Source: Mycobacterium sp. UM_CSW
GTDB lineage: Bacteria > Actinomycetota > Actinomycetes > Mycobacteriales > Mycobacteriaceae
DNA: 51,958 nucleotides
Direction: 5' to 3'
Assembly: GCF_000455205.1 (NCBI RefSeq)
Contig: NZ_AUWQ01000058.1
Coordinates: 1 to 51,958, forward strand
This document shows, piece after piece, positions 2,304-49,999 of this stretch; position 1 is the first letter of the stretch, and the number at the start of each line of letters is the position of its first letter. Made by a program: the position numbers and the translations under genes. The notes under the pieces are model-generated. The model searched no databases. It had not been told where the DNA came from and saw nothing but the letters and a program-made list of their open reading frames with translations.

Positions 2304-3686
2304 ATGGCTGAAGGCGTGTTCGGGCGCAGCGACGCTGAGACCGATTTACTTGTCCGTGGCATGCGGTCAGGGATCGCAGTCGTCGGCTTCGGCTACATCG
2401 GCACGGTGATCGGTGCCGTGCTGGCCGATCGCGGTTGGCCCGTGACCGGGATCGACGTGCGGCAGAACGTCGTCGACGAGATCAACTCGGGCAAGACGAG
2501 TGTGCCCGAGCCGGGGCTCGGCGAGATGGTGGCCACCAACGTGCGCGTCGGCCGCCTTCGGGCCACCACCGATTTCGGCGCCCTGGCCCACAATGACTTC
2601 GTCATCGTGACGGTCGGGACGCCGCTGGGTCCGGACTACGAGCCCATCGTCGATGACATCAAGGCGGCGGCGCGGGCGGTGGGGGAGCACCTGCACCCCG
2701 GCCACCTGGTCATCCTCAAGAGCACGGTCCCGCCCGACACCACCGAAAACATCGTGTTGCCGATCCTCGAAGAGGTCTCGGGGCTGCAGGCAGGGGTCGA
2801 CTTCGGGTTGGCGTTTTGCCCGGAAAGGCTCGCCGAGGGCCAGGCCATCCACGAGCTGACGTCGATCCCGGTGGTGGTCGGCGCGGTCGACGAGGTCACC
2901 GCGCGGGCCTGCTCGACGCTGTGGCGTCATGCCCTGGGCGTGGAATCCATCGTCGTCGACGACCCGCGGACGGCCGAGATGGTGAAACTCGCCGACAACC
3001 TCTGGATTGATCTGAACATCGCGATGGCCAACGAACTGGCCAAGGTGTGCGACCGGCTGAACATGGACGGGCTGCAGGTCATCGACGCGGCCAACTCGAT
3101 GCCCAAGGGCACGCACAAGGTGAACATCCTGCGGCCGAGCATGGGCGTCGGTGGCTACTGCCTGACCAAGGATCCGTGGTTCGTCAATCATCTGGGCCAG
3201 TCGCTGGGGTTGGAGCTGGGCATCCCGCGCACGTCGCGCACGGTCAACGACACCATGCCCGCCTACACCTATGGGTTGCTCACCCAGCTGCTCGCCGAGC
3301 AGAACAAGGCGATCGAGACCAGCAAGATCGCGGTGCTGGGCATCGCGTTCAAGAACAACACCGGCGACTGCCGGCTCACGCCCACCAAGTACGTCGTCGA
3401 GTTGCTCGAGGCGTCCGGCTGCGAGCTGTCCATCCATGACCCCTGGGTGCCCGACGAGGAGGCGCCCACGGTGACCAATATTCCGTTGACCCCGGACATC
3501 GAGTCGGCGGTCAAGGATGCCGACGCCCTGGTAGTGCTTGCCGGCCACCGGGAATTCCACCAGATCCCGCTGGCCCGCCTGGCGGATCTGACGGCGCCCG
3601 GCTGCGTGTTCCTCGATGGACGCAACAGCTTCGATCCAGCGGCGGTGCGCGCCGCCGGTTTCGTGTACAAGGGGATCGGCCGGTAG
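2304..3686 (+). CDS. Nucleotide-sugar 6-dehydrogenase (UDP-glucose/UDP-ManNAc dehydrogenase superfamily)
   Basis: About 460 residues. It oxidises the C6 hydroxyl of a nucleotide sugar to a uronic acid using two NAD+. The NAD fold begins IAVVGFGYIG (GFGYIG near residue 28). Then come the FCPERLAEG motif, the central dimerisation helix, and the catalytic cysteine in GVGGYCLTKDPW (Cys286). The C-terminal UDP-binding domain begins near IAVLGIAFKNNTGD. The layout is nearer WecC-type enzymes than classical UDP-glucose dehydrogenases, so the substrate is uncertain. ATG 2304 is chosen, with GAAGGG upstream; in-frame alternatives are TTG 2292 and ATG 2361, the latter at MRSGIAVVG. It lies 49 bases before the epimerase on the same strand, probably one operon supplying an activated sugar. 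Confidence 0.85.
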   Translation: MAEGVFGRSDAETDLLVRGMRSGIAVVGFGYIGTVIGAVLADRGWPVTGIDVRQNVVDEINSGKTSVPEPGLGEMVATNVRVGRLRATTDFGALAHNDFVIVTVGTPLGPDYEPIVDDIKAAARAVGEHLHPGHLVILKSTVPPDTTENIVLPILEEVSGLQAGVDFGLAFCPERLAEGQAIHELTSIPVVVGAVDEVTARACSTLWRHALGVESIVVDDPRTAEMVKLADNLWIDLNIAMANELAKVCDRLNMDGLQVIDAANSMPKGTHKVNILRPSMGVGGYCLTKDPWFVNHLGQSLGLELGIPRTSRTVNDTMPAYTYGLLTQLLAEQNKAIETSKIAVLGIAFKNNTGDCRLTPTKYVVELLEASGCELSIHDPWVPDEEAPTVTNIPLTPDIESAVKDADALVVLAGHREFHQIPLARLADLTAPGCVFLDGRNSFDPAAVRAAGFVYKGIGR

Positions 3687-3735
3687 CCATACTGCAGGCG
3701 AAGGTAAACCCGTACATAGAACTGAAAGAGCGAAT

Positions 3736-4731
3736 ATGTCCCATGTCGTCGTAACGGGCGGCTACGGCCTGATCGGGTCGCATCTGGTGTCCACACTGCT
3801 GGACCGGGGCGACACGGTGACGGTCTTCGACCAGGCAAAGAACACTCGCGACACCAGCATCGACTTCGACCGGCACGCCAACTTCCGGTTCGTGCAAGGC
3901 GACGTCACCGACCTGGCCGCGCTATCCGAGGCCCTGACGCCCGGCGTCGACAAGGTCTTCCACCTGGCCGCGGTCGTCGGCGTCAAGAACTATATGAAGG
4001 ACCCGCTGCAGGTTCTCGACGTCAACGTGACCGGCACGCGCAACGTCCTGGAGCTGAGCCAGCGGCACGGCACCCGCGTGGTGTTCGCCAGCACCTCCGA
4101 GGTGTTCGGCAAGAACCCCAACCCCCCGTGGGCGGAGGACGACGACCGCGTACTCGGCTCCACCAGAACGGCCCGCTGGAGCTACAGCACCAGCAAGGCC
4201 ATGGCCGAGCACCTGGTCTTCGCGATGCACGCCGCCCACGGACTGCCGGTGACGGTCGTACGGTACTTCAACGTCTACGGCCCCCGGCAGAACCCGATCT
4301 TCGTGATCTCGCAGACCGTTCACCGCATCCTCAATGGTCTCCCACCGCTGCTCTACGACTCGGGTGACCAAACGCGGTGCTTCACCTACGTCGACGACGC
4401 CATCGCCGGCACCCTGCTGGCGGCCGACAGCGACGCGGCGATCGGTGAGGCCTACAACATCGGGAGCATGACCGAGACCACAATGCGCGACGCGATCGAG
4501 CTGGCGATCAAGATCGCCAACGTTGACTCGGTGTCGGAACCCGAAGTCGTCGACACGGCGGCGCGCTATGGGGGTCGCTACGAGGACATCCCTCGTCGTA
4601 TCCCGGACTCCACCAAGGCGCAGCGCGAGCTGGGTTGGCGCCTCAAGGTCGACGTCGAGGAGGGGATCCGCCGCACCATCGACTGGGCGCGGGCCAACCC
4701 CTGGTATCTCAAGGGGCCCGCGGGGGACTAG
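3736..4731 (+). CDS. NAD-dependent nucleotide-sugar epimerase/dehydratase/decarboxylase
   Basis: 331 residues, extended short-chain dehydrogenase fold. TGGYGLIG is the NAD-binding glycine motif at the N terminus, a catalytic Ser lies in FASTSEVFG, and Tyr150/Lys154 (YSTSK) form the catalytic pair. The C-terminal DSTKAQRELGW is typical of sugar-nucleotide epimerases. ATG 3736 is preceded by GAAAGAG; the open frame extends further upstream but that part lies within the dehydrogenase gene. It probably acts on the uronic-acid product of the preceding gene as an epimerase or decarboxylase, but the exact reaction cannot be read from the sequence. It converges on the acyltransferase, with which it overlaps by 4 bases. 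Confidence 0.85.
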   Translation: MSHVVVTGGYGLIGSHLVSTLLDRGDTVTVFDQAKNTRDTSIDFDRHANFRFVQGDVTDLAALSEALTPGVDKVFHLAAVVGVKNYMKDPLQVLDVNVTGTRNVLELSQRHGTRVVFASTSEVFGKNPNPPWAEDDDRVLGSTRTARWSYSTSKAMAEHLVFAMHAAHGLPVTVVRYFNVYGPRQNPIFVISQTVHRILNGLPPLLYDSGDQTRCFTYVDDAIAGTLLAADSDAAIGEAYNIGSMTETTMRDAIELAIKIANVDSVSEPEVVDTAARYGGRYEDIPRRIPDSTKAQRELGWRLKVDVEEGIRRTIDWARANPWYLKGPAGD

Positions 4732-6929
4732 CGGGCGAGCGCGCGGTCGGCGAGCGCGCCCATCGCCGGTGCCAACTGCCCGGAGTACTCGGCTGTGATG
4801 TGGTTCCAGTCGAGGTAAACCATGGTGTTTCCGACGATGACGGGGCAGCGGTTCGTGGTGCAGAACAGCTCGGTCAGGTCGGCGTACTGCCCGCCGCTGG
4901 CCTTGGTGGCGGTGGTCTCGGCCGTGATCCCGGCGTCGTTCACCGCGGACGACCGTGGCGGCGAGCAGGCCGCGGCGTCGCCGAGGTGGCCGGACAGGCA
5001 TTGCGGTACCACCGTGCCCGGGTCCGGGACCGGTCCGAGCACCAACACCTTGGCGCCGTCGCTGCGCAGCTGCTGCACCAGGCGGCTGAGGCTGTCGATC
5101 CACGCGGGGTCGTAGGGCGTGTAGCCCGCCTGCCAGCTGCCCTCGCTGTGCTCGCGCGACATACTCACCACGACCAGCCGCGGGTGTTCGGCGCGCAGCC
5201 GGGCCAGGATCAGCGCCCGCCACTGGTCGCAGTGCATGAAGCTTTCGATCAGGCCGTCGAGGTGTTTGGCGATGGGCACGTCGAGCAACGGGCAGCCCGC
5301 CTTGGCCATCATCTCCAGCCGCCAGTGCCGCTGTTCGGCGATCTGCTGAAACGCCGGGTCCCACATGGCGGCGTGCGAGTCGCCGACCAGGGCGACCGTC
5401 GTGCTCGAGCCGGTGTCACCCGTCGCGCACTCGGGCTGCCCGCTTTGGTTGGCCCCGCGGAAGCAGCCGCTGGACCACATCGCAGTCTGGCCGGCCGTTG
5501 CTTCGGCCACCGGGGGTTGCAGGTTCGACGGGACGGCCCTCAGGTCGGCCGACGCCGCGACGGCGGCCTGCGCCTGCGCGAACGCCTGCTGCACCGCAGC
5601 GTCGTAGGCGTCCATGCCGGCGCCCGGTGGGACGGGTGCCGCGGTGATGGTCAGCGCCGTGCCCGGGGCGCCGCGGCCGACCGGGATCGGTATCCACGCC
5701 AGCATCGCCACGCCCACACCCACTGCCACCGCGGTGGCGGTCGCGCCGACCGCGAAACTGGCCAGCGGGGACTTGCGCAGCGGGGCGGCGTAGCGCAGCG
5801 GGTTCTCGACAAAGCGCAGCGTGAGAATCCCCAAGCCGCCGGAGATCACGACGGCCACCAGCCTGCCGACCAGCCCCAGCTGATGGCCGAGCAACGGCGC
5901 CGCCAGGACCAGCACCGGCCAGTGCCACAGATACCACGAGTAGGACAACCGGCCCATCTCGCGCATCGGCTTGAACGCCAGGATGCGGCCGGCGCCCTGC
6001 GTGGGGAGGGCGCAGCCGGCGCCGATCACCAGGACCGTGCCGAGCAACGGCCATATCGCGGCGGTGCCCGGATACGGCGTGGCCGGGGTCAGCCGGTTGC
6101 AGACCAGCACGATCAGGCCCAGCCCCGCCCATCCGGTGATCGCGGCGGCGCGCGCCGGCAGCCGACGCCACTGGTTGGCCGTGAGGGCCAGCATGCCGCC
6201 GACGGCCAGGTCCCAGGCCCGCGTGGGCAGCGAGAAGTACGCCGCCGGGGGCACCAGGTACGTGGTCAGCAGCGAGAGTACGAACGACGAAATCGCGACC
6301 AGCGCAAAGACCGTCAGGAAGGTGCGCTTGGGAGCGTTCGACAAAGTATTAGTAGTAGTGGCTGTGCGCCGGCGCGTGCGCCGGATCAGCCACCAGGTAC
6401 CGATGATCAGCACCGGCCACACCAGGTAGAACTGCTCCTCCACGCCCAGCGTCCAGTAGTGCTGGAACGGCGACGGCGGCTGATGGCCGCCGAAGTAGTC
6501 GACGTTTTCGTGAATGAACCAGTAGTTGCCGACGTACAGCGCGCAGGCGATGCCATCCTCCACCACGCCTTTGGCCTGCAACGGCGACAACAGGACGGCC
6601 GAGGCGATCACGGTCACGCTGCCGATGAGGGCGGCAACCGGCAGCAGGCGGCGGACGCGTGCGGCATAGAACTTGCGCAGTCCGATCGTGCCGGTGCCGC
6701 TCACCTCGCGCCACAGCTGCCCGGTGATGACGAAACCCGAGATGATGAAGAAGATGTCCGGGCCGACGAACCCACCGCTCGCGCCGGGCACGTCGGCGTG
6801 AAAGAGAAGGATGGCCACCAGCGTCAAGGCGCGCAGGCCCTCGATGTCCGGGCGGAATTCCTTGTGTGCCGAGCGCCGATCTTGCGCCGCCCCGATCGGG
6901 CTAACGCTTTCGGCCTGGACCACGGTCAC
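4728..6929 (-). CDS. Membrane O-acyltransferase, acyltransferase-3 domain fused to SGNH domain (paralogue 1)
   Basis: About 733 residues. The N-terminal acyltransferase-3 domain starts with FRPDIEGLRA (residues 25-34) and has about ten membrane helices, with the family His in LLFHADVPG. The C-terminal domain is SGNH: GDSHAAMW with Ser518, and DWNH near the end as the catalytic DxxH. Such fusions move acyl groups across the membrane onto extracytoplasmic sugars. I start at GTG 6929 rather than ATG 6953, because paralogue 2 has an in-frame stop directly before the equivalent GTG, and the AGGTGG/AGGTAG upstream is conserved. It is divergent from GT1. It likely acylates a sugar of the glycolipid; the acyl donor and position are unknown. 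Confidence 0.87.
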   Translation of the reverse strand: MTVVQAESVSPIGAAQDRRSAHKEFRPDIEGLRALTLVAILLFHADVPGASGGFVGPDIFFIISGFVITGQLWREVSGTGTIGLRKFYAARVRRLLPVAALIGSVTVIASAVLLSPLQAKGVVEDGIACALYVGNYWFIHENVDYFGGHQPPSPFQHYWTLGVEEQFYLVWPVLIIGTWWLIRRTRRRTATTTNTLSNAPKRTFLTVFALVAISSFVLSLLTTYLVPPAAYFSLPTRAWDLAVGGMLALTANQWRRLPARAAAITGWAGLGLIVLVCNRLTPATPYPGTAAIWPLLGTVLVIGAGCALPTQGAGRILAFKPMREMGRLSYSWYLWHWPVLVLAAPLLGHQLGLVGRLVAVVISGGLGILTLRFVENPLRYAAPLRKSPLASFAVGATATAVAVGVGVAMLAWIPIPVGRGAPGTALTITAAPVPPGAGMDAYDAAVQQAFAQAQAAVAASADLRAVPSNLQPPVAEATAGQTAMWSSGCFRGANQSGQPECATGDTGSSTTVALVGDSHAAMWDPAFQQIAEQRHWRLEMMAKAGCPLLDVPIAKHLDGLIESFMHCDQWRALILARLRAEHPRLVVVSMSREHSEGSWQAGYTPYDPAWIDSLSRLVQQLRSDGAKVLVLGPVPDPGTVVPQCLSGHLGDAAACSPPRSSAVNDAGITAETTATKASGGQYADLTELFCTTNRCPVIVGNTMVYLDWNHITAEYSGQLAPAMGALADRALAR

Positions 6930-6954
6930 CCACCTGTCTGAGGAGGCGTTCATC

Positions 6955-6989
6955 GAATCGAGGCATTATCACACACACGTTCAATGCCT
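6955..6989 (-). promoter_or_regulatory. Upstream block shared by the three acyltransferase genes, copy 1
   Basis: The plus-strand core TATCACACACACGTTCAA recurs with small changes before all three acyltransferase genes. Read on the minus strand it gives TGTGATAAT, a reasonable extended -10 element, with a start 20-50 bases downstream. In this copy the core is also flanked by a perfect 7-bp inverted repeat, AGGCATT (6961-6967) and AATGCCT (6983-6989). It may be promoter, operator or both; shared ancestry of the duplicated genes could explain the conservation without function. Confidence 0.5.
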
Positions 6990-7079
6990 CTCGGCCGAAT
7001 CCGCCACTCCTGAGCGGCGGCCTGGTTATGCTGCTGGGCGGCTGAGCCGGGGACCCGAGAAAGGCAAAGGATCTCGCCG

Positions 7080-8348
7080 ATGAAATTCGTGCTGGCAAAC
7101 TGGGGAACTCGCGGCGAAGTCGAGCCCTACGTCACTGTCGGCCGCGAGCTGGTGCGCCGCGGGCACGACGTGCACATGGCCGTCGCCCCCGAAATGGTCG
7201 CCTTCACCGAGGCGGCCGGGCCTACGGCGGTCGCCTACGGGCCCGAGTTGAAAGCCATCCTGGACCCGCATCGCGATTTCTGGGCGGGCCTGTTCGCCAC
7301 CCCCTGGAAGATCCGGGAGCTGGGCAGGTTGTCGGCCGAGTATTCGGCCCCGCTTTCTCAGTGCCGGCCGGAGGTCAGCGCGACGCTGATCTCGCTGGCC
7401 GAGGGGTCCGACCTGCTGCTGACCGGCATGAACTTCGAGGACGACGCGCTGAACGCGGCGGAGTACTGCGGCATCCCGCTGGCCACCCTGCATATCTTCC
7501 CGCTGCGGGCCAACGGCCGGCTGCTGCCGTTCCTGCCGGCGCCGCTGGCCCGCTCCGCGACGCGCACGCTCGACTGGCTGGCCTGGCGCGGAGGAAAACA
7601 GGTCGAGGATGCCCAGCGCCGCGACCTCGGTTTGCCGGAGGCGACGAGCCCCTGGCCGCGCCGGATCGCCGAACGCGGGTCCCTGGAAATCCAGGCCTAC
7701 GACGAGGTGTGCTACCCCGGGCTGGCGGCCGAATGGGCGAAATTCGGCGGGCGACGGCCGTTCGTCGGCGCACTGACGATGGAGTTGCCGACGGACGCCG
7801 ACGAGGAAGTCGCGTCGTGGATCGCCGCCGGAACGCCGCCGATCTGCTTCGGATTCGGCAGCGTCGGCGTCGAATCCGCTGCCGACACGCTCGCGATTAT
7901 CAGCTCGGCGTGCGCCCAGTTGGGCGAGCGGGCGCTGGTGTGCGCGGCCGGCTCGGACTACAGCAACGTCCCCCACTCCGAGCACGTCAAGGTCGTGGGC
8001 GTGATGAACTACGCCGCGGCGTTGCCCGCCTGCCGCGCGTTCGTGCACCACGGCGGCTGCGGCACCACGAACGCGGGCCTGCGCGCGGGACTGCCGACGT
8101 TGATCCTCTGGACGTTGCCCGATCAGGGGCTCTGGGGAGCTCGGGTCAAACGCCTGAAAGTCGGCACCGGCCGGCGCTTTTCGGCCACCACCGAGAAATC
8201 GTTGGTCGCGGACCTGCGCACCATCCTCGATCCGCAATGCGCCATCCATGCCCGCGACCTCGCCGCCCGGATGACCAAACCCGCCGAGAGCGTTGCGGTC
8301 ACCGCCGATCTGGTGGAAAACTTCGCGCGCCTCAAGCGGATCGGCTGA
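7080..8348 (+). CDS. GT1-type glycosyltransferase, GtfA/Rv1524-Rv1526c-like (GT1)
   Basis: 422 residues, the usual length of mycobacterial GPL glycosyltransferases. The N-terminal acceptor domain starts MKFVLANWGTRGEVEP. The C-terminal donor domain carries GFGSVGVES and the nucleotide-sugar signature HHGGCGTTNAGLRAG (His323 onwards). It should transfer an activated sugar, often a TDP-deoxysugar, to the lipopeptide core in the cytoplasm. ATG 7080 is preceded by AAAGGA. It is divergent from acyltransferase 1 and ends 9 bases before the convergent acyltransferase 2. It is clearly paralogous to GT2 and GT3. Sugar and acceptor site cannot be assigned. Confidence 0.87.
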   Translation: MKFVLANWGTRGEVEPYVTVGRELVRRGHDVHMAVAPEMVAFTEAAGPTAVAYGPELKAILDPHRDFWAGLFATPWKIRELGRLSAEYSAPLSQCRPEVSATLISLAEGSDLLLTGMNFEDDALNAAEYCGIPLATLHIFPLRANGRLLPFLPAPLARSATRTLDWLAWRGGKQVEDAQRRDLGLPEATSPWPRRIAERGSLEIQAYDEVCYPGLAAEWAKFGGRRPFVGALTMELPTDADEEVASWIAAGTPPICFGFGSVGVESAADTLAIISSACAQLGERALVCAAGSDYSNVPHSEHVKVVGVMNYAAALPACRAFVHHGGCGTTNAGLRAGLPTLILWTLPDQGLWGARVKRLKVGTGRRFSATTEKSLVADLRTILDPQCAIHARDLAARMTKPAESVAVTADLVENFARLKRIG

Positions 8349-8357
8349 CCGGCGGGC

Positions 8358-10556
8358 TCAACCGTGGGCCAGCGCGCGGTCGGCCAGCGCCGCGATCGCC
8401 GGTGCCAGCAGCCGGGCGTATTGGAAAGTCAGATGCCCGGGGTCGAGATAAACCAGGGTGTTGCCGACGATCACCGGGCAGCGATTGGTCGTGCAGAACA
8501 AGTCGGTGAGGTCGGCGTATTGTCCGCCGCCGGCGGCGGTGGCGGCGGATTCGGCGGTGATGCCGGGCTCGTTCACCGCGGTCGATCTAGGTGGCGAGCA
8601 GGCCGTGGCGTCGTCGAGGTGGCCGGAGAGGCAGATCGGCACATACGACTGCGGGTCGGGGATGGGCCCGAGCACCAGCACCTGCGCGCCGGTGCCGCGC
8701 AACTCCCGCACCAGCCGGAAGAAGCTGCTGTTCCACGCCGAGTCGTAGGACGTGAACCCCGACGGCAAACCATAGCGGTCGCCGTAGCGGCGCATCACGT
8801 CGAGCACGATCAGCCGCGGGTGCTCGGCGCCCACCCGCGCGATGATCTGACCGCGCCACCGCGTGCACTCGGTGTATTCCCGGTGCAGGGTGGGGCTGAG
8901 GATGCGCAGGTCCAGCAAGGGGCAACCCGCCTTGGACATCATCTCCAGCCGCCAGTGCCGCTGGGTGGCGACCTGCTGCAAGGCCGGGTTCCACATCGCG
9001 GCGGTGGAGTCGCCGACCAGCGCCACCGTCGTCGCCGAGGCGGTGTCGCCGCCGGCGCACTCGGGCTGTCCGTCTTGGAAGAAATTGCGCATGCAGCCGT
9101 CGCGGAACAAGGCCCGGTGTTCCTCCGCGGCGTCGGCCAGTGGGGGATCGAGGTTCGACGGTACGGCCCGTAGGTCGGCCGATGCCGCGACCGCGGCGTG
9201 CGCCTGCGCGAACGCCTGCTGTACCGCGGCGTCGTAGGCGGCCATGCCGGAGCCCGCCGCGGCAGGCGCCGCGGTGATGGACAGCGGCGCGGCCGGTGCG
9301 CCGCGCCCCACCGGGGTGGGCACCCACAGCAGCAGCGCCACGCCCACACAGACCGCCACCGCGGTGGCCGCTCCGCCGAGCGCGAGGCTGGCCCGCGCCG
9401 AGCGGCGCACGGGATCGGCGAACCGCAGCGGGTTTTCGATGAATCGCAGCGTGAGTGCGGCCAGCGCTCCGGAGACGATGGCCGCCGTCAACCGGGCGGC
9501 CAGCCCGAGCGGGTGACCCAGCAACGCCGGGGCGAGCAGCAGCACCGGCCAGTGCCACAGGTACCACGAATAGGAGATCCGGCCGATCGCGCGCATCGGC
9601 GACGTGCCCAACAGCCGGCCGCATCCCTGCGACGGAGTGGCACAGCCGGCGCCGATCACCAACATCGCACCGAGTGTGGGCAGCAGCGCGGCGGTACCCG
9701 GGTACAGGGTGGACGAGCTCAACTGGTTGCTGGCCACCAGGATCGCCGCGAGGCCCGCCCATCCGACGAGCGCGGCGGATCGTGCCGGCAAGCGTCGCCA
9801 CTGGCCGGCGGTGAGGGCGATCAGCCCGCCGGCGGCCAACTGCCAGGCCCGGGTGGGCAGCGAAAAGAACGCCACGGGGGGCGCCAGATAGGTGACCGCC
9901 AGGGAGAGCGCGAACGACGCGGCCGCGACCAGCGCCAGGACCACGAGATAGGGACGCTGAGATGAAGGCGAGGAGGCGGCGTCCGTGTTGGTGCGCCGAC
10001 GCGCACGCCGGATCAGCCACGCCGTCCCGATGATCAGGGCCGGCCAGATCAGGTAGAACTGCTCCTCCACCCCGAGCGACCAGTAGTGCTGGAACGGCGA
10101 AGCCGGCGCCATGCCGCCGAAGTAGTCGACGCCTTGCTGAATGAACCAGTAGTTACTGACATACAGGGCGCTGGCGATGCCGTCGAAGATGACGCTTCGG
10201 GCCTGTAACGGGGGGAGCAGGACGGCCGAGCCGATCAGGGTGGCGACGCCCACGGTGGCCGACGCCGGCAGCAGTCGGCGGGCCCGGGCCCCGTAGAACT
10301 TGCCCAGCCGGACGGTGCCGGCGCTGCTCACCTCGCGCCACAGCAGTCCGGTGATCAAGAAGCCGGAGATGACGAAAAAGACGTCTACGCCGACGAATCC
10401 ACCGCCGATCCCCGGCACGTCCGCGTGAAACAGGACTACCGCCAGCACGGCGACGGCGCGCAACCCCTCGATATCCGGTCGGAACCGCGACTGTGCCGAG
10501 GGCCGACCCCGCGCCTCTTCGGTAGGGCGAACGCTGTCGGACTGGCGCAAGGTCAC
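8358..10556 (-). CDS. Membrane O-acyltransferase, acyltransferase-3 domain fused to SGNH domain (paralogue 2)
   Basis: 732 residues, same architecture as the other two copies: FRPDIEGLRA and about ten membrane helices, then an SGNH domain. The serine block reads GDSTAAMW, with Thr where paralogues 1 and 3 have His; the DxxH block reads DPGH and is intact. The start is GTG 10556, fixed by an in-frame TAG immediately upstream and by AGGTAG as a possible ribosome binding site. Role: acylation of a surface glycolipid sugar (inferred). It lies downstream of the epimerase on the same strand but has its own upstream block. Confidence 0.87.
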   Translation of the reverse strand: MTLRQSDSVRPTEEARGRPSAQSRFRPDIEGLRAVAVLAVVLFHADVPGIGGGFVGVDVFFVISGFLITGLLWREVSSAGTVRLGKFYGARARRLLPASATVGVATLIGSAVLLPPLQARSVIFDGIASALYVSNYWFIQQGVDYFGGMAPASPFQHYWSLGVEEQFYLIWPALIIGTAWLIRRARRRTNTDAASSPSSQRPYLVVLALVAAASFALSLAVTYLAPPVAFFSLPTRAWQLAAGGLIALTAGQWRRLPARSAALVGWAGLAAILVASNQLSSSTLYPGTAALLPTLGAMLVIGAGCATPSQGCGRLLGTSPMRAIGRISYSWYLWHWPVLLLAPALLGHPLGLAARLTAAIVSGALAALTLRFIENPLRFADPVRRSARASLALGGAATAVAVCVGVALLLWVPTPVGRGAPAAPLSITAAPAAAGSGMAAYDAAVQQAFAQAHAAVAASADLRAVPSNLDPPLADAAEEHRALFRDGCMRNFFQDGQPECAGGDTASATTVALVGDSTAAMWNPALQQVATQRHWRLEMMSKAGCPLLDLRILSPTLHREYTECTRWRGQIIARVGAEHPRLIVLDVMRRYGDRYGLPSGFTSYDSAWNSSFFRLVRELRGTGAQVLVLGPIPDPQSYVPICLSGHLDDATACSPPRSTAVNEPGITAESAATAAGGGQYADLTDLFCTTNRCPVIVGNTLVYLDPGHLTFQYARLLAPAIAALADRALAHG

Positions 10557-10669: not shown

Positions 10670-11743
10670 CTACGCCGAGGATTCGGGTTGCTCGCCGATC
10701 CATTCCAGCAGGGCGGGCAGACCGTCCTCGAGCGTCCACTTCGGACGCCAGTCGAGCTCGTTCTTGGCCGGGTCGATGTCGCACCTGGCGGCGCGTACGT
10801 CACCGTCGCGGAATTTCCCGACGACGTTCGGTCGGGGGGCGTCGCAGATGGTGGCGATCTTTTCCGCCAGCTGATGGATGGTCGTCGGGATTCCCGACCC
10901 GATGTCGAGGCAGCGCGTCCCGTTCGCGGGTTTCTCGATCGCGGCGAACAGGGCCTCGACGATGTCGTCGATGTAGACGAAGTCACGCAGGATGTGTCCG
11001 TCTTCGTAGACTTCCAGCGCGCACCGCTGCCGCGCCAGTCGTGCGAAAAGGGCGACGATTCCGGTGTAGGAGTTGGTCAGCGACTGTCCCGGTCCGTAGA
11101 CGTTCTGCAGGCGCAGCATGCTGAGGTTGGTGTCGTGCGCGGCCGTCCAAGCGGCCAGGATGTGCTCTTGGGCGAGCTTGGTCGCGGCATAGATGTTGGT
11201 GGGCCGGGGCTCGGTTCGGCCGGCGCAGCTCGCAAGCGGGACCACCGGATCGTCGGTGGGCCCCTGCGGATCCCAGATACCGGCCTGCAGCTGCGCGTGG
11301 CTGCGGGGCTGCGGGTAGAAGATCTGCGAGCCGCATTGCCAGGAGCCCTCGCCGTAGACGGCCCGTGACGACGCCAGCACCAACTGGTCGGGCGCGTGTC
11401 CCGAGCGGCTCAGCGCATCGAGCAGTTGGGTCGTTCCCACCACGTTCACCGAACCGTGGCGGGTGGCCTCGGAAAGCGACTGCGCCGTTCCCGTCTCGGC
11501 CGCCAGATGGACGATCTGGGTCGGGCGGACCAACCGAAGCACGGCGTCGCAGTCCGGGGCGTGGGTGACGTCGCCGGTGAAGAACCGCACCGACGGCGGG
11601 AGGTCGATCGCCGCGCTTTTGCCGTGCACCTGTGGGTGCAGGACGTCCATGACGGCGACGTCGTAACCGGCGCCGACGAGGCGGCGCGCGAGCGACGACC
11701 CGATGAATCCGGCCCCGCCAGTGATGAGAACGGGTGTTGACAA
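10670..11743 (-). CDS. NAD-dependent nucleotide-sugar epimerase/dehydratase
   Basis: 357 residues, extended short-chain dehydrogenase fold. TGGAGFIG is at residues 8-15, catalytic Ser in LASSRAVYG, and Tyr185/Lys189 in YAATK. A long insertion between the serine and tyrosine motifs includes FYPQPRSHAQLQAG. Later motifs RDFVYIDDIV and NELDWRPKW are typical of UDP/TDP-hexose 4-epimerases and related enzymes. The start is TTG 11743, with GGAGG about 10 bases upstream. It probably makes a sugar donor for one of the neighbouring glycosyltransferases, for example a 6-deoxyhexose C4 epimer, but the substrate is not determinable. Acyltransferase 2 follows on the same strand. Confidence 0.82.
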   Translation of the reverse strand: MSTPVLITGGAGFIGSSLARRLVGAGYDVAVMDVLHPQVHGKSAAIDLPPSVRFFTGDVTHAPDCDAVLRLVRPTQIVHLAAETGTAQSLSEATRHGSVNVVGTTQLLDALSRSGHAPDQLVLASSRAVYGEGSWQCGSQIFYPQPRSHAQLQAGIWDPQGPTDDPVVPLASCAGRTEPRPTNIYAATKLAQEHILAAWTAAHDTNLSMLRLQNVYGPGQSLTNSYTGIVALFARLARQRCALEVYEDGHILRDFVYIDDIVEALFAAIEKPANGTRCLDIGSGIPTTIHQLAEKIATICDAPRPNVVGKFRDGDVRAARCDIDPAKNELDWRPKWTLEDGLPALLEWIGEQPESSA

Positions 11744-40900: not shown

Positions 40901-43900
40901 CTGGCCTGGCAGAGCGGGCAGGGGCAGGGCGCCGGCGGACCCGCCGGGCTGACCCTGGGCGGGCTGCAGGTCACACCGCTGCCGCTCGACACCCGCACCG
41001 CCCGCACCGACCTGGCGTTCTCGCTGGGGGAGACGTGGACCGAGGACGGCGAGCCCGCCGGAATCGCCGGGTCGGTGGAATTCCGGACCGACGTGTTCGA
41101 CGCCGCCAGCATCGAAACGCTGATCGAGCGGCTGAAGCGGGTGTTGGCCGCCATGACGGCGGACCCGGGGCGGCGGCTGTCGTCGGTGGATCTGCTCGAC
41201 GAGGCCGAGCACGCCCGCCTCGACGAGGCGGGCAACCGCGCGGTCTTGAGCCTGCCCGCGCCGGCCGCGGTGTCGGTGCCGGAGCTGTTCGCCGCGCAGG
41301 TGGCCCACGCCCCGGAGGCGCCGGCGGTGACCTTCGCGGGCCAAACGATGACCTACCGGGAACTCGACGAGGCCGCTAATCGGTTCGCGCACTTGCTGTC
41401 TGGCCGCGGCGTGGGCCCCGGTGGTTGTGTGGCGTTGCTGCTGGAGCGGTCGGCCCAGGCCGTCGTGGCGATGCTGGCGGTGCTCAAGACCGGGGCGGCC
41501 TACCTGGCCATCGACCCGGCGCTGCCCGCGGCCCGGATCGACTTCATGCTGGGCGACGCCGCGCCCGTCGCCGCGGTCACCACCGCCGGGCTGGCCGACC
41601 GGCTGGACGGGCGGGAGCTGACGGTCATCGACATCGCTGATCTCGACGACCCCGCCGTCGAGGACCAACCGGCCACCGCGCTGCCGGCGCCGTCGGCCGA
41701 CGACATCGCGTACCTGATCTACACCTCGGGGACCACCGGGACGCCCAAGGGCGTCGCGATCGCCCACCGCAACCTGGCGCACCTGGCGCAGTCGTCGCAC
41801 CCGTCCCTGCCGGCGACGCAGGTGTGGACGCAATGCCACTCGTACGCGTTCGACTTCTCGGTCTGGGAGATCTGGGCCGCACTGCTCGGCGGCGGGCGGC
41901 TGGTGGTGGTGCCCCCGTCCGTCGTCGCCTCACCGGAGGACTTCCACGACCTGCTGGCCCGGGAGCGGGTCAGCGTGCTCACCCAAACCCCGTCGGCGGT
42001 GGCCGCCCTGTCCCCGCAACGGTTGGAGGCCGAGGCGGTGCTGCTCGGCGGCGAGGCCTGCTCGGCCGAGGTGGTGGACCAATGGGCGCCCGGGCGGGTG
42101 GTGGTCAACGCCTACGGACCCACCGAGGCCACGGTGTACGCCTCGATGAGCGCGCCGCTGCAGGCGGGGTCCGGCGCGGCTCCGATCGGTGCGCCCGTGT
42201 CGACGGCGGCGCTGTTCGTCCTGGACGAGTCGCTGCGGCGGGTGCCGGCCGGTGTGGTCGGGGAACTGTACGTGGCCGGCCGGGGCGTCGGCGTCGGATA
42301 CGTCGGCCGGACCGGGCTGACCGCCTCGCGCTTCGTGGCCTGCCCGTTCGCCGGCGCGGACGCGCCGGGGACCCGGATGTACCGCACCGGCGACCTGGTG
42401 CGGTGGCGCGCCGACGGGCAGCTGCAATACCTGGGCCGCGCGGACGAGCAGGTCAAGATCCGCGGATACCGCATCGAACCGGGCGAGGTCCGGGCCGCTC
42501 TGGCCGCGTTCGACGGCGTCGAGCAGGCGGTGGTGGTCGCCCGCGAGGACCGCCCCGGCGACAAGCGCCTGGTCGGATACATCACCGGGACCGCGGACCC
42601 GGCCGCCCTGCGATCCGCGCTGGCCGAGCGGCTGCCGGCGTACATGGTGCCGGCCGCGGTGGTGGCGCTGGACGCGTTGCCGCTGACGGTCAACGGCAAG
42701 CTCGACGCCAGGGCCCTGCCGGCACCGGAATACGAGGCCACCGATCGTTACCGCGCCCCGAGCAATCCGACCGAGGAAATCTTGGCCGGCATCTACGCCC
42801 AGGTGTTGGGCGTGGACCGGGTCGGGGTGGACGACTCGTTCTTCGACCTGGGCGGGGATTCGCTGTCGGCGATGCGCCTGGTCGCCGCGATCAACACCGG
42901 CCTGGGCGCCGGCGTCGCGGTGCGCGCCGTGTTCGAGGCGCCCACGGTGGCCCAGCTGGCGACGCGCCTGCACGGTGACGAGGGCGGCCTGGACCCGTTG
43001 GTGGCCGTCGAGCGGCCCGCGGTCATTCCGTTGTCGTTCGCCCAGCACCGGTTGTGGTTCATCGACCAGCTGCAGGGCCCGTCACCGGTCTACAACCTGG
43101 CGGTGGCGCTGCGGCTGCGCGGGCGGCTGGATGCCGACGCGTTCTGCGCGGCGCTGGCCGACGTGGTGGGCCGCCACGAAAGCCTGCGCACGCTGTTCGC
43201 CGCCCCCGACGGGATACCGCAACAGCTGGTGCTGCCCGCCGAGCAGGCCGACTTCGGTTGGGACGTGGTCGACGCGACCGCGTGGTCGCCACGCCGGCTG
43301 CAGGCGGGCATCGAGGAGACGGCGCGGCACAGCTTCGATCTGGGGGCCGAGATCCCTTTGCGGGCAAGGCTTTTCCGCGTCGCCGACGACGAACACGTGC
43401 TGGTCGCCGTGGTGCACCACATCGCCGCCGACGGCCTGTCGATCCCCCCGCTGGTGCGTGACATATCCGTCGCCTACGCCAGTCGGTGTCTCGGGCAGGA
43501 ACCCGGTTGGACGCCGTTGCCGGTCCAGTACGTCGACTACACGCTGTGGCAGCGCGCGCAATTCGGCGATCTCAACGATCAGGACAGCCCCATCGCCGCG
43601 CAGCTCGCGTACTGGCAGGAAGCACTGGCGGGGATGCCCGAGCGGCTCGGGCTGCCCACCGACCGGCCCTACCCCGCGGTGGCCGATCAGCGGGGCGCCA
43701 GCGTGGTGCTGCAGTGGCCCGTCGAGTTGCAGCGGCAGGTCGTGCGGGTGGCCCGCGAACACAACGCGACCAACTTCATGGTGATGCAAGCCGCGCTGGC
43801 CGTGCTGCTGGCCAAGCTCAGCGCGAGTTCCGATGTGGCGGTGGGCTTTCCGATCGGGGGACGCCGCGACCCCGCGCTCGACGAGCTGGTCGGCTTCTTC

Positions 43901-46900
43901 GTCAACACGTTGGTGTTGCGCGTGGACGTGGCGGGCGACCCGAGCGTCGCCGACCTGCTGGCCCAGGTGCGGGCGCGCAGCCTGGCCGCCTACGAACACC
44001 AGGACGTGCCCTTCGAAGTGGTCGTCGAGCGGCTGAACCCCACCCGGTCGCTGACCCACCACCCGCTGGTCCAGGTGATGCTGGCCTGGCGGACCCTGCA
44101 CGACACCGCCGGCGACCCCACCGCCAGGTTCGCCGCGGGAGAGCTGGAGCTCACCCAGATGCCGGTGGACACCGGCACCGCCCGCATGGACCTGGCGCTT
44201 TCCCTGGAAGAGCACTTGGACGCGGGCGGTGAGCCGGCCGGCATCGGCGGGGTGGTGGAATTCCGCACCGACGTGTTCGACGCGGCCACCATCGAAACCC
44301 TGATCGAGCGGTTGCAGCGCGTGCTGGTGGCGATGACCAGCGACCCGACCCGGCGGCTGTCGTCGATCGGCGTGCTCGATGACGCCGAGCGAATCCGGTT
44401 GGAGGACTGGGGCAATCGGGTCGCGTTGACCGAACCGGCGAGCCCGCCGGTGTCGATTCCGGAGCTGTTCGCCGCGCAGGTGGCGCGGGTGCCCGACGCC
44501 GCCGCGGTGACCTTCGAAGACCGGTCGCTGACCTATCGCGAACTCGACGACGCGGCAAACCGGTTGGCGCGCCTGTTGGTCCGCGGGGGCGTGGGGCCGG
44601 GCCGGCGCGTGGCGCTGCTGCTGCCCCGCTCGGCCGAGGCCATCGTGGCGATCCTGGCGGTGGTGAAGACCGGGGCGGCGTACGTGCCGATCGATCCGGC
44701 GGTGCCGGAGGCCCGGATGCAGTTCGTGCTCGGCGACGCCGCGCCCGTCGCCGCGATCACCACCGCGGAGTACCGCGCGCGGCTGGACGGACACGATCTG
44801 CTGATCATCGATGTCCAAGACGCCTCCGAAGACACCGCCGCCCCCGCCGTTGACGCCCGCCTCGGCACGTCGTTGCCCGCGGCCTGCCCGGACGACGTCG
44901 CCTACATCATCTACACCTCGGGCACGACCGGGACGCCCAAGGGCGTCGCGGTCCCGCATCGCAACGTCACCCGGCTGCTGGACACCCTGGCCGGTGACAT
45001 GGACCTGGTGGGCCGGGTGTGGTCGCAGTGTCACTCGCTGGCGTTCGACTTCTCGGTGTGGGAGATCTGGGGCGCGCTGCTCTACGGCGGGCGCGTGGTG
45101 GTGGCGCCCGACTCGGTGGTGCGCTCGCCCGAAGACCTGCACGCCCTGCTGGTGACCGAACGGGTCAGCGTCCTGAGCCAGACGCCGTCGGCGTTCTACG
45201 CCCTGCAGGCCGCCGACGCGTTGCAGCCCGAGCTGGCGTCCCAGTTGCAGCTGGAGGCCGTGGTGTTCGGCGGCGAGGCGCTCGAACCGCAGCGCCTGCG
45301 CACGTGGCTGGACAGTCACCCGGCCCGGCCCCGGCTGATCAACATGTACGGCATCACCGAGACGACGGTGCACGCCTCGTTCCGCGAGATCGTCGCCGAC
45401 GACGTCGACACGGCCGTGAGCCCCATCGGGGTGCCGCTGGGCCATCTGGGTTTCTTCGTGCTGGACGGGTCGTTGCAGCCCGCGCCCCCCGGTGTGGTCG
45501 GCGAGCTGTACGTCGCCGGCGCCGGCTTGGCGCACGGGTACATCGGGCGGGCGGGCCTGACCGGGACGCGGTTCGTCGCGTGTCCGTTCGGCGGGCCGGG
45601 GGCGCGCATGTACCGCACCGGCGACCTGATGAGCTGGGGCGCCGACGGGCAGCTGCGTTACATGGGCCGCGCCGACGAGCAGGTCAAGATCCGCGGCTAT
45701 CGCATCGAGCTCGGCGAGGTCCAGGCGACGCTGAACGGCCTCGACGGCGTCGAGCAGGCGGTGGTGATCGCCCGCGAGGATCGCCCCGGCGACAAGCGCC
45801 TGGTGGGTTACGTGACCGGGACGGCGGACCCGGCCGAGGTGCGCGCCGCGCTGGCCGACCGGCTGCCGGCCTACATGGTGCCGGCGGCAGTGGTGGCGCT
45901 GGACGCGCTGCCGCTGACGGTCAACGGCAAACTCGACACCCGCGCCCTGCCCGCGCCGGAGTATCAGGACGTCGATCACTACCGCGCCCCGGCCGATGCG
46001 GTCGAGGAGATCCTGGCCGGCATCTACGCGCAGGTGCTGGGGCTGGAGCGGGTCGGGGTCGAGGAGTCGTTCTTCGAACTCGGCGGGGACAGCATCCTGT
46101 CGATGCAGGTGGTGGCGCGGGCGCGCGCCGCCGGCGTGGTGGTTCGGCCGCGCGACATCTTCGTTGAGCAGACGGTGGCCAAGCTCGCCCGGGCGGCCGG
46201 GGTGGTCGCCGACGACGCCGAGGTGATCGACGAGGGCGTCGGCGCGGTGCTGGCCACGCCCATCATGCGCTGGCTGCAGAGCGTGGATGGACCGGTCGAC
46301 GAGTTCAACCAGACCGTGCTGGTGCAGGCCCCGGTGGGGGTGACGTCGTCCGACGTGGTGGCGGTGTTGCAGGCCTTGCTGGATCGGCACCCAATGTTGC
46401 GGCTGCGCGTCGACGACTACAACACCGACGGCACCGACGGGTGGTCGGTGACGGTGCCCGAGCCCGGTGCGGTGGACGCGCGCGGGTGCGTGCAGACGGT
46501 GGACGTGCTGTCCGACGACGCGGTCACCGCGGCGCGGTCGCGGTTGAACCCGGCCACCGGGGTGATGCTGAGCGCGCTGTGGGCGGCTCCCACCGGGCAG
46601 CTGCTGTTGATCGTTCACCACCTGGCGGTCGATGGGGTGTCGTGGCGGATCCTGCTCGAGGACCTCAACCTGGCCTGGGCGCAGCACCGCGGCGGCCAGC
46701 AGGTCGTGTTGCCGGCGCCACGGACGTCGTTCGCCCGGTGGGCGGCGCTGCTGGCCGAGCACGCCCACCGTCCCGAGGTCGTGGAGCAGGCGCGCGCGTG
46801 GCGGCAGATCGCCGCGCTGCCCGCGGAGTTGCCGGCGGTGCAACCCGCGGTGGATACCTATGCGACCGCCGGGAACCTGTCGGTCGAGCTCGACGCCGAG

Positions 46901-49300
46901 ACGACCCGGATGCTGCTCGGCGAGGTGCCGGCGGCGTTCCACGCCGGCATCCACGAGATCTTGTTGATCGCGTTCGCCTTGGCTTGTGCCGAGTTCTTGG
47001 GCACTGGCGCCGCGCCCATCGTGATCGACGCGGAAGGCCACGGGCGCCAGGAGGAGCTGGACTCTACCGTCGACCTGTCGCGCACCGTGGGGTGGTTCAC
47101 CACCAAGTACCCCGTTGCGCTCGCGGTGGGCGGGCTGGACTGGGCGCAGGTCCTGGCCGGCGACGCGGGGCTGGGCGCGGTGATCAAAGACGCCAAGGAG
47201 CAGCTTCGCGCCCTGCCGGACGGTCTGACCTACGGGATGCTGCGCTACCTGAACAGCGACGTCGACCTGGAGGGGCCGGACCCGACGATCGGGTTCAACT
47301 ACCTCGGGCGGCTGGGCGCCGCGGCGACCGAGGTGTCCGGGGACATCTGGGAGATCCGCCAGGACGGCTGGTCGGTGACCGGCGTTGCCGCGGCGACGCC
47401 CATGCCGCTGATGCACACCGTCGAGCTCAACGCGGGCACCCTGGACGCCGAGACCGGTCCCCGCCTGCGCGCGGGGTGGACGTGGGCCCCGTCGGCTTTG
47501 GATCAGGCGCGGGTCACCCGGCTGAGCCGGTTGTGGTTCGACGCGCTGGCCGGCATCTGCGCGCACGTGCGCAGCGGTGGCGGCGGCTTGACGCCGTCGG
47601 ACATCACGCCCGCCCGGCTGAGCCAACTGCAGATCGACGAGCTGGCGCGGCAATACCGCATCGCCGACGTGCTGCCGCTTACCCCGTTGCAGCAGGGGCT
47701 GCTGTTCCACGCCAGCACCGCCCAGGGCGGCGACGACGTGTACGCGGTGCAGCTCGACGTCACGCTGAGCGGTCGGCTCGACCAGCACCGCCTGCGGGAC
47801 GCCGTGCACACCGTGGTCGCCCGCCACCCCAACCTGGCGGCCCGCTTCAGCGCGCGGTTCGACCAACCGGTGCAGATCATCCCGGCCGACCCCGTGGTGC
47901 CGTGGCGCTATCTCGACCTCAGCGGGGGCGATGCGGACGTCGACGAGCAGATCCAGGAGATCTGCGCCGCCGAACGCGCCGCGGTCTACGACTTGGCCGA
48001 CCATCCCGCCCTGCGGGTCGCGCTGATCCGCACCGGGCAAGACCGGCACCGGTTCGTGCTGACCAATCACCACATCGTGCTGGACGGGTGGTCGCTGCCG
48101 ATCCTGCTGGGCGAACTGTTCGCCAGCTATTACGGCCAGCGGTTACCCGCGGCCGGCTCGTATCGCAGGTTCGTGTCGTGGCTGGCCGGCCGCGACGTCG
48201 ACGGCGCCCGCGCGGTGTGGCGCGAGATATTCGACGGCTTCGCCGCGCCCACACTCGTCGGGCCGCCGGATTGGTTCGGGCTGGGCCGGCGCGGCGTTGC
48301 GTCGTTCCGGGTGCCCGAAGACACCACCCGCGCGCTTGGCGAGTTGGCGCGCACGCGGCACACCACCGTGAGCACCGTGCTGCAGGCCGCCTGGGCGCAG
48401 CTGCTGACGTGGCTGACCGGCCAGCGCGACGTCGCCTTCGGCGCCGTGGTCTCCGGGCGGCCGGCCGAGGTGCCCGGCGCGGACTCGATGGTCGGCCTGT
48501 TCATCAACACGGTGCCGGTGCGGGCGACCATCACGGGGGAGACCACCACCGCCGACCTGCTGGATCAGTTGCAAGGCGAACACAACCGCACGCTGGATCA
48601 CCAGCATCTGGCGCTGAGCGAGGTCCACCGCGTCACCGGCCACGCAAGGCTCTTCGACACCGTGTTCGTCTACGAGAACTACCCCGCCGATCCCGCCGCC
48701 TTGGCGGGGACCGACGGGTTGGCCATCACCGACATCGCCAACCGCGACTACTACCACTACCCGCTCACCGTCCAAGCATTGCCGGGCCGAGAGTTGGAGT
48801 TGCACGTCCAATTCCGCGCGGACGTTTTCTCACCGGCCGACATCGAGGCGCTGATCGAGCGGTTCCAGCAGACGCTGGTCGCGATGACCACCGGCCCGAC
48901 GCGACCGTTGTCGTTGATCGAGGTACGAGACGACGGGAAGCACGCGCGCCCGGACCGGTCGAGCTACCACCCGGCGCCGGCGCCGTCAGTGCCCGATCAC
49001 AACCACAACGGCAACGGCAACGGCCACCATGCCCCCACCAGCCTGGTCGAACAGATCTTGACCGGCATCTACGCGCAGGTGCTCGGGGTGGACCACGTCG
49101 GAATCGACGAGTCGTTCTTCGACCTCGGCGGGGACTCCCTTGCCGCGATGCGAGCCACCGCCACGATCAACACGGCCCTCGACGCCGACCTCGAGGTGAC
49201 CGCGCTGTTCGAGGCCCCGTCGGTCAGGCGGTTGAGCCAGCGCTTGGCCGGACATGCCTGCGCGGTGGACGTTCCCGCCGCCAGCCCGGCCGGCGATTAG
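36665..49300 (+). CDS. Nonribosomal peptide synthetase 2, three modules plus C-T (C-A-T-C-A-T-C-A-T-E-C-T)
   Basis: 4211 residues. C1, DCL-type (HHIVMDG 139-145), accepts the D-residue from NRPS 1. A1 (Tyr600, Asp645; code DFWQVGMVHK, Thr-like), T1 Ser1000. C2, LCL-type (HHIAADG from 1191), A2 (Asp1730; code DFWQLGAVYK, possibly aromatic), T2 Ser2066. C3 (from 2251), A3 (Asp2795; DFWQVGMVHK, Thr-like), T3 Ser3143. E (HHLAVDG from 3318; EGHGR), so residue 4 is probably D-allo-Thr. C4, DCL-type (HHIVLDG 3802-3808), is followed by a His/Asn/Gly-rich linker and T4 (Ser4158), with no A domain, thioesterase or reductase. Codes were aligned by hand to the GrsA positions. The ATG at 36665 lies inside the last codons of NRPS 1, suggesting translational coupling. 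Confidence 0.94.
45957..48910 (+). repeat. Duplicated T-E-C segment, copy 2 (NRPS 2 C-terminal part)
   Basis: Counterpart of 34981-37935, encoding T3-E-C4. The two copies keep the same order and almost the same length. Here E and C4 are in one frame ([13 protein letters not shown]), whereas in copy 1 the same junction is split between two genes. Confidence 0.7.
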
Positions 49301-49324
49301 CCGCACCCGGGGCCGGCGCGGTCG

Positions 49325-49999
49325 CTACCACATGGATGGCACTAGCCGGTAGCGAACCTTCTGCGTGTACTCGCGGTATCCGTTCAACTCCTGCTGGAGC
49401 AGCTTCTCCTCGTCGCGGATGCGCGAGGCCAGCACGAGCAGGCCGGGAACGACGAAAACCAGTCCCCAGTAAGAACCGAGCGCAAGGGGGATGCCGACCA
49501 TCATGATCACGTTGCCCGTATACATCGGATGCCGCACCAGCCCGTACAGACCGCTGGAGACGACCTCTTGGCCCGACTGCACCTGGACGGTCGCCGACGC
49601 GTAGCTGTTCTGGATGATCACCAGCGCCACCACGCCCAGCCCGATGGCCACCAGGACGTCGCCGAACACGCAGACCGCCGTCGGCACCGGCGACCAGCCG
49701 AAGCGATGATCGAGGGCGCTGACCACGACCATGGCGGCCAGCGATCCGTACAAGCCGGCGATGATGACGCGCTGCGCCAGCCGGGCCTCGGCCACCGGCC
49801 CCCCTCGCATCCGGGCCTCCAGCGCGGCGGGATTCCTACGCAGTAGGTAGACCGCGGGGATCCAGGCCGTGATTCCGACGACCACCAGAAAAACCCATGC
49901 CTGCCAGTAATTGAATGTGCCCGCGGGAAAAAACAGCATCGCGCCGAACACGACGAACTCGACAACACCGAAGACCAGCATTTTAGGAATGGTTTTCAC
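49325..49999 (-). CDS. ICMT/PEMT-type integral membrane methyltransferase
   Basis: 224 residues with about five hydrophobic segments. The C-terminal catalytic signature is GLYGLVRHPMYTGN (RHPMY 156-160) followed by RIRDEE (193-198), as in isoprenylcysteine carboxyl methyltransferases and related phospholipid methyltransferases. These use SAM to methylate lipophilic substrates in the membrane, in some members a carboxyl group. GTG 49999 with GGAGG four bases upstream is a much better start than the ATG at 50095. It converges on NRPS 2 with a 24-base gap. A role in methyl-esterifying the peptide C terminus would suit an NRPS without a release domain, but this is speculative; it may be an unrelated flanking gene. 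Confidence 0.8.
   Translation of the reverse strand: MKTIPKMLVFGVVEFVVFGAMLFFPAGTFNYWQAWVFLVVVGITAWIPAVYLLRRNPAALEARMRGGPVAEARLAQRVIIAGLYGSLAAMVVVSALDHRFGWSPVPTAVCVFGDVLVAIGLGVVALVIIQNSYASATVQVQSGQEVVSSGLYGLVRHPMYTGNVIMMVGIPLALGSYWGLVFVVPGLLVLASRIRDEEKLLQQELNGYREYTQKVRYRLVPSMW

Follow-up and report, generated by a model that had tools for sequence, protein, structure and literature searches.

A mycobacterial glycopeptidolipid-type locus whose synthetase ends in an E-C-T tail beside an ICMT-type methyltransferase gene: a predicted route to a C-terminal methyl ester

The stretch of DNA analysed here (the window; 51,958 nucleotides, NZ_AUWQ01000058.1 of Mycobacterium sp. UM_CSW) is the entire contig C58 of a Mycobacterium genome of 6.39 Mb. 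It carries a two-module polyketide synthase (PKS), an MbtH-like protein, two nonribosomal peptide synthetases (NRPS1 and NRPS2), and genes for glycosyl-, acyl-, methyl- and sulfotransferases and for sugar-nucleotide enzymes. Gene classes were assigned by Pfam and NCBIfam scans (Table 1), and all those that an original prediction had named for a non-classical glycopeptidolipid (GPL) locus were found, including four adenylation (A) domains in two proteins. In agreement with that prediction, no reductase was present: at E 0.001, Pfam detected neither a thioesterase (TE) nor a reductase domain in NRPS1 or NRPS2, only condensation (C), A, A-C-terminal and carrier (T) families. Two details had to be revised. 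NRPS2 does not end with the epimerization (E) domain of module 4 but continues into an extra C-T tail, with no A domain between the last C and T and neither a TE nor a reductase after them. Likewise, the gene next to this tail, previously described as a lipid-type methyltransferase, encodes an ICMT/PEMT-type membrane methyltransferase. The expectation of a C terminus different from that of classical GPLs is supported by the lack of a reductase, and the E-C-T tail together with the ICMT gene is a candidate for the missing step. We consider it fairly probable that the locus makes a GPL resembling that of M. xenopi, with a PKS-extended acyl chain, release by a D-specific C domain and O-methylation by the ICMT-type enzyme.

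The methyltransferase scored 43.6 bits against PF04140 (cut-off 24) and aligned to the solved ICMT structure PDB 4a2n (E 2.1e-7), the motif RHPMY being common to both. Against the NCBIfam equivalog NF040696 it reached 48 bits with a cut-off of 160, so it was not called as that enzyme.

Domain order, specificity-code matches, and the conservation and linkage of the tail and the ICMT gene were computed directly. When the C-T tail (566 residues) was searched in 326 genomes of the genus, 127 gave matches at E 1e-195 or better among the matches listed, and in at least 101 of the 326 (hand count, own genome included) the match extended to query position 547 or beyond. We then mapped 40 tail loci from 39 genomes, picked by hand for having the tail. 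An E domain precedes the tail in 40/40, and a carrier domain follows the terminal C domain in all of them, as the choice of loci implies. Both the HHxxxDG motif of the C domain and the carrier serine (GG[DN]S) are kept throughout (40/40 each). The Pfam check for TE domains covered the window and genome G088, which carries the calibration system described below; for the relatives the domain order comes from the mapping. The last A code before the tail is Thr-type in 35 of the 40 loci, Ser-type in two, DTWTVAAMVK in two and unreadable in one, which rules out that the last residue is always Thr-type.

In a quick tree of 41 terminal and 28 internal DCL domains (SH-aLRT, no bootstrap), the terminal C domains grouped together with one internal copy (SH-aLRT 95). 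This lone intruder pairs as sister with the terminal domain of the same protein (locus L156, genome G083), and such close kinship of internal and terminal DCL domains looks like gene conversion. With the L156 internal copy left out as looking converted, three positions part the terminal from the internal C domains (41/41 versus 27/27, 26/27 and 27/27). In an alignment with PvdL, a different synthetase, neither diagnostic state was simply kept; the residues are diagnostic only within these 41 + 27 domains. Two unusual cases were also noted. At L161 (G272), a single C-A-T-E module is joined in frame to C-T, by a possible deletion or an assembly collapse of NRPS2. The E-C-T/ICMT arrangement also occurs in metagenome bins of uncultured actinobacteria (L085, and L086, where a contig end cuts it).

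Orthologous clusters are present in M. interjectum, M. paraense and M. bohemicum, with NRPSs 75-91% identical. They bear on the possibility that a trans-acting hydrolase or thioesterase releases the product and that the C-T tail is a leftover. The cluster does encode an alpha/beta hydrolase, which has homologs in both the M. interjectum and the M. paraense cluster. However, there was no match at E 1e-20 in the 80 kb searched of M. bohemicum, which has the same tail, and this hydrolase is therefore a poor candidate for the releasing enzyme. As the tail motifs are moreover kept at every mapped locus, we regard release in trans as quite unlikely, and retain release by the terminal C domain.

An ICMT gene lies no more than 2 kb from the tail in 37 of the 40 loci (34 directly; G172, G102 and G125 by coordinates). 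For the reverse linkage, we took the best 80 of 143 ICMT homologs in named genomes and scored NRPSs within 2.5 kb. Thirty of these homologs abut an E-C-T tail, three a tail cut by a contig end, five a TE-ended NRPS and two a reductase-ended NRPS. The TE-ended cases are L120, L121, L123 and L125 (M. houstonense, M. septicum, M. setense and M. peregrinum, which we take to be members of the M. fortuitum group; L123 and L125 were put in this class by reading of the rows) and Mycobacterium sp. GA-0227b. The NRPSs of the first four read Thr-Ala-X before the TE, and at L120 a 466 aa gene without a Pfam match lies between the NRPS and the ICMT gene. Fortuitine ends in Thr-Ala-Pro-OMe, and these four loci are thus candidates for the fortuitine locus, where Thr-Ala-X-TE would fit the end of the molecule. 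Neither a paper on fortuitine nor a description of an ICMT gene with a mycobacterial NRPS was found in the open-licence literature (subscription papers fall mostly outside it); in the available text of PMC3388012 the ICMT family is named once, in a table of Pfam families.

For calibration we used GL8P, the glycosylated lipooctapeptide of M. abscessus. Its locus (MAB_4689c-4705c) encodes a hexamodular and a bimodular NRPS, its peptide is T1-A2-F3-I4-Y5-L6-T7-T8 with D residues at 1, 3, 6 and 8 attributed to four E domains, and its sugars are on the last residue, D-allo-Thr (PMC11978893). The NRPS pair of G088 has 6+2 modules, E domains at 1, 3, 6 and 8, and an E-C-T end followed by an ICMT gene; judged by position, the M. 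abscessus counterpart of this gene would be MAB_4689c. From it we derived the codes DFWSVGMVHK (Thr), DVWSVAAVYK (Ala), DVWTVVAMCK (Phe), DFWTVGVLCK (Ile), DAESLAAICK (Tyr) and DFWTLGAVYK (Leu). The GL8P system thus resembles the window in its NRPS end with an adjoining ICMT gene and in its GPL-type glycosyltransferases; unlike the window, it makes an octapeptide, and no PKS match was found in the 60 kb of G088 searched. The published formulas of GL8Pa (C71H116N8O18) and GL8Pb (C90H150N8O24) each equal the computed free acid (C70H114N8O18 and C89H148N8O24, respectively) plus CH2. Words for a C-terminal ester were not found in the text of PMC11978893, whose authors may have drawn it in figures.

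Since GL8P has eight A domains and eight residues, the C-T tail adds no residue. This bears on whether the A-less C-T module could be charged in trans by another A domain, to give a pentapeptide freed by an unknown enzyme, as might be suggested by the HHxxxDG motif and carrier serine, which are as intact in the 40 tails as in a working elongation module. The GL8P formula, however, has no room for a ninth residue, the M. xenopi peptide has four residues as against four A domains in the candidate described below, and among the window open reading frames (ORFs) scanned there is no A domain outside the two NRPSs. We judge charging in trans to be very unlikely. A condensation-family search of the genome gave no further lipopeptide synthetase beyond the window, except for a multi-domain set on contig C2 that we take to be that of mycobactin; four single short matches were taken for PapA-like proteins.

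The four A codes of the window are DVCSIALVHK, DFWSVGMVHK, DFWTLGAVYK and DFWSVGMVHK. By the GL8P-calibrated codes positions 2-4 read Thr-Leu-Thr, and the whole is predicted as Ser-Thr-Leu-Thr, which supports the N-acylated tetrapeptide with a Ser/Thr-rich core proposed originally. The Ser call for A1 depends on the candidate M. xenopi genome (G186): A1 is 76% identical to the second Ser domain of that candidate, the first being too broken to compare. Classical C-type GPLs end in alaninol, made by a reductase domain. These compounds, made by Mps1/Mps2, have a PKS-made acyl chain and O-methylated and O-acylated sugars (PMC3537567). The window shares GPL-type glycosyltransferases, MbtH and a distant Mtf2-like methyltransferase with them, features that would favour a classical product. 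A GPL ending in alaninol is nevertheless already contradicted by the domain order, which includes no reductase, and by codes reading Ser-Thr-Leu-Thr, not Phe-Thr-Ala-Ala, and it is scarcely credible here.

Chemical knowledge of the serine-containing GPL from M. xenopi goes back to the early 1990s, and the C terminus of this lipid is an alkali-labile methyl ester. Its peptide is described as Ser-Ser-Phe-D-allo-Thr, with sugars on Ser and Thr (PMC7261415, PMC5996870). No description of its genes was found in the open-licence literature, outside which most subscription papers fall. G186 is probably M. xenopi: a 22-base spacer oligonucleotide that we assume to be specific for this species was found in one of the 326 genomes, G186, where it occurs twice, each time between 16S and 23S rRNA. 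No published probe sequence for M. xenopi turned up in the two papers searched for one. As in the window, the NRPS plan of G186 is C-A-T-E-C-A-T-C-A-T-C-A-T-E-C-T, in several open pieces with broken frames. Its codes are DVWSVAMVHK and DVCSVAMVHK (read as Ser, Ser), DVWTVVAMCK (Phe) and DYWSVGMVHK (Thr-like), and its neighbours are a TylF-type methyltransferase, MbtH, GPL-type glycosyltransferases and Gap-like proteins (the latter assigned by eye). This plan and the Ser-Ser-Phe-Thr codes bear out the earlier choice of the M. xenopi GPL as the nearest known compound. Between positions 100000 and 300000 of G186, a span of 170 kb contains three or more large NRPS loci for lipopeptides, in which many frames are broken. 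A TE-TE end occurs at one of these loci and an E-C-T end at two; at one of the latter two, the C and T domains fall in separate open pieces.

The window resembles the M. xenopi GPL in having four A domains, with Ser first and a last Thr (DFWSVGMVHK) followed by E. It departs from the Ser-Ser-Phe-allo-Thr core in the middle, where Thr is predicted at position 2 and Leu at position 3. The window also has a two-module PKS beside the NRPS, whereas in the 200 kb of G186 the one PKS-like match is at 282-288 kb, beyond another NRPS locus. The acyl chain of the M. xenopi-type GPL is short (C12) and unmodified. Further differences are the uronic-acid-type sugar gene cluster of the window and an ICMT gene that is adjacent in the window only.

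The simplest account of the locus is a predicted core acyl-Ser-Thr-Leu-D-allo-Thr-OMe, and from the domain and gene order we infer the product, the release chemistry, the methyl ester and the order of decoration as follows. The two-module PKS, both of whose AT domains carry the HAFH motif that we take to mark the malonyl type, would add two C2 units to a fatty acyl starter, one of them hydroxylated and the other fully reduced. The predicted result is a 5-hydroxyacyl chain, a possible substrate for methylation by the Mtf2-like enzyme. NRPS1, through its starter C domain, would load this chain onto Ser, and NRPS2 would add Thr, Leu and Thr, the last E domain converting the final Thr to D-allo-Thr. 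The terminal C domain would then free the D-ended peptide from the carrier of module 4; stereospecific hydrolysis would be the simplest mechanism, perhaps with passage over the A-less last carrier. The adjacent ICMT-type membrane enzyme would cap the carboxylate as its methyl ester. Glycosyl-, acyl-, methyl- and sulfotransferases would decorate the hydroxyl side chains, and the product is probably sulfated; these decorations (uronic acid, O-acyl groups and sulfate) are predicted from gene families only.

Release of this kind has parallels elsewhere. In the myxobacterial crocacin system, which we liken to the window by description and not by sequence, a C-like domain is said to be a hydrolytic release domain, and a methyl ester step is also reported. 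In the fungal enzyme IvoA, a terminal C domain of the DCL clade placed after E releases the free D-acid (PMC12751119). The window similarly has a terminal DCL-type C domain directly after E, with neither TE nor reductase. In contrast, IvoA is a single-module enzyme for which the available text tells of no methyl ester step, and in the window a carrier follows the C domain.

Several points weigh against the proposed release and methylation. In GL8P, the additional CH2 might in principle be located at another site, and the authors of that work annotate a TE domain (PMC11978893), where Pfam found none in the bimodular protein of G088. The last carrier is conserved, and its role in release might be that of a transient acceptor, a docking site or a relic. 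Module 1 has an E domain both in the window and in G186, as against the L-Ser given for the first position in the review text; the frames of G186 are broken in module 1 and elsewhere, through either error or mutation. L5P of M. avium subsp. paratuberculosis is a lipopeptide with a C-terminal methyl ester, described as a pentapeptide that ends in L-Ala and has no sugars (PMC8103206). A methyl ester therefore needs no E-C-T tail, and this slightly lowers our confidence. Tails without a near ICMT gene were found in G083, G117 and G186, although a second tail of G117 has one. In G186 there is no ICMT gene within 50 kb of the GPL tail, the nearest being 54 and 77 kb off, at other NRPS loci. In the reverse search, 40 of the best 80 named homologs had no NRPS within 2.5 kb, and such homologs are common, with 165 of 198 genomes having one, so it is linkage and not presence that serves as evidence. 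Finally, an ICMT gene lies beside a reductase-ended NRPS at L072 and L073 (Mycobacterium sp. IS-836 and IS-1264), with the reductase detected by Pfam in L072 and by an HMM match in L073, and with a stand-alone AMP-ligase-like gene on the other side. This clashes with carboxyl methylation, because the product of a reductase-ended NRPS should have no carboxyl.

These reductase-ended neighbours and the M. xenopi-candidate locus without an ICMT gene would suit an enzyme that methylates some other group, such as a sugar or acyl hydroxyl, with the C terminus left as a free acid or lactone. On the other hand, the homology is to carboxyl methyltransferases, the gene is linked to the NRPS end at the great majority of mapped tails (37/40), and GL8Pa, described with an unmodified sugar, still has the extra CH2. 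We consider methylation of another group unlikely, and keep the C-terminal carboxylate as the proposed target.

Among the other genes of the cluster, the epimerase at 10670-11743 is 78% identical to one at the M. xenopi-candidate locus, and the TylF-type methyltransferase shows 81-82% identity in three relatives. An overlapping ORF at 14327-15400 was rejected as spurious; it lies in another frame, and PF05711 and the relatives point to the frame given in Table 1. The glycosyltransferase at 16740-17975 has an ortholog in M. paraense, but none was seen in the stretches of M. interjectum and M. bohemicum. The sulfotransferase was also rejected as a gene common to serine-containing GPLs: the one from the M. 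xenopi candidate aligns at 31% over 127 residues.

Table 1. Features of the window, in order of position.
Feature	Position	Strand	Basis
GMC-type oxidoreductase gene, 5' end	1-185	-	GMC by eye (N-terminal sequence); tblastn 90%, M. paraense residues 1-61
GFO/IDH/MocA oxidoreductase (putative sugar modification), start approximate	295-1296	+	Pfam PF01408, E 3.1e-22
Alpha/beta hydrolase	1302-2117	-	Pfam PF12697
Nucleotide-sugar 6-dehydrogenase (predicted uronic acid precursor)	2304-3686	+	TIGR03026, above cut-off
NDP-sugar epimerase/dehydratase; true start probably ~3730	3616-4731	+	PF16363/PF01370
AT3-SGNH membrane O-acyltransferase	4728-6953	-	PF01757+PF19040
GPL-type glycosyltransferase (GT1-type)	7080-8348	+	PF06722/PF03033
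AT3-SGNH membrane O-acyltransferase	8358-10556	-	PF01757+PF19040
NDP-sugar epimerase	10670-11743	-	PF01370
AT3-SGNH membrane O-acyltransferase	11893-14172	-	PF01757+PF19040
TylF-type sugar O-methyltransferase	14268-15395	+	PF05711
GPL-type glycosyltransferase (GT1-type)	15414-16682	+	PF06722
GPL-type glycosyltransferase (GT1-type)	16740-17975	+	PF06722
Two-module PKS, KS-AT-KR-ACP-KS-AT-DH-ER-KR-ACP	18201-29198	+	Pfam, motifs
Sulfotransferase	29301-30263	+	PF13469
Methyltransferase related to GPL fatty-acid O-methyltransferase Mtf2, distant	30278-31144	-	139 bits, below cut-off 400
MbtH-like protein	31877-32107	+	PF03621
NRPS1, starter C-A1-T-E; A1 code DVCSIALVHK, Ser-like	32113-36678	+	Domain scans, codes
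NRPS2, C-A2(Thr)-T-C-A3(Leu)-T-C-A4(Thr)-T-E-C-T	36665-49300	+	Domain scans, codes
E domain of module 4, start of release tail (proposed)	46238-47614	+	Domain mapping
Terminal C domain, putative release type, HHIVLDG intact	47660-48934	+	Domain mapping, tree
Terminal carrier domain without A domain, LGGDSL intact	49034-49252	+	Domain mapping
ICMT/PEMT-type membrane methyltransferase, proposed C-terminal carboxyl methyltransferase	49325-50095	-	PF04191/PF04140
PE_PGRS gene, cut by contig end; right cluster border	51338-51958	+	PF00934

At the left end of the window, the GMC-type oxidoreductase gene is split, with residues 1-61 in the window and 57-555 on contig C112. The end of C112 and the start of the window have 18 identical bases, and the gene order in M. 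paraense matches this junction; these three lines of evidence together indicate that C112 abuts the window. C112 encodes one further acyltransferase, one further glycosyltransferase and a protein that combines an AMP-ligase-like domain with a PKS part and is 85% identical to its M. paraense counterpart. The original observation that no FadD lies in the window stands, but a true absence does not: given the AMP-ligase-like/PKS protein on the abutting contig, the absence is a contig-end effect. Separately, contig C123 of G000 carries two SfLAP/Gap-like genes in tandem (6878-8202; L229); no link to the cluster was found, the nearby 20 kb being without cluster genes of the window or M. paraense except for PE-type matches.

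Looking beyond this locus, we lean slightly towards the view that E-C-T with ICMT is a dedicated and widespread mycobacterial NRPS termination cassette, composed of a distinct clade of D-specific release C domains, a parked carrier and a membrane carboxyl methyltransferase. Such a cassette would make methyl esters of D-allo-Thr or other D residues in GL8P, in M. xenopi-type GPLs and in many unseen lipopeptides, and would so far have passed for a TE or an incomplete module. With the present locus, the M. xenopi-type GPL gains a candidate locus type along with a predicted peptide and a putative release step. If this is true, the C termini of many lipopeptides of mycobacteria could be predicted from the way the NRPS ends, a reductase standing for an alcohol, and E-C-T, or a TE, with an ICMT gene for a methyl ester.

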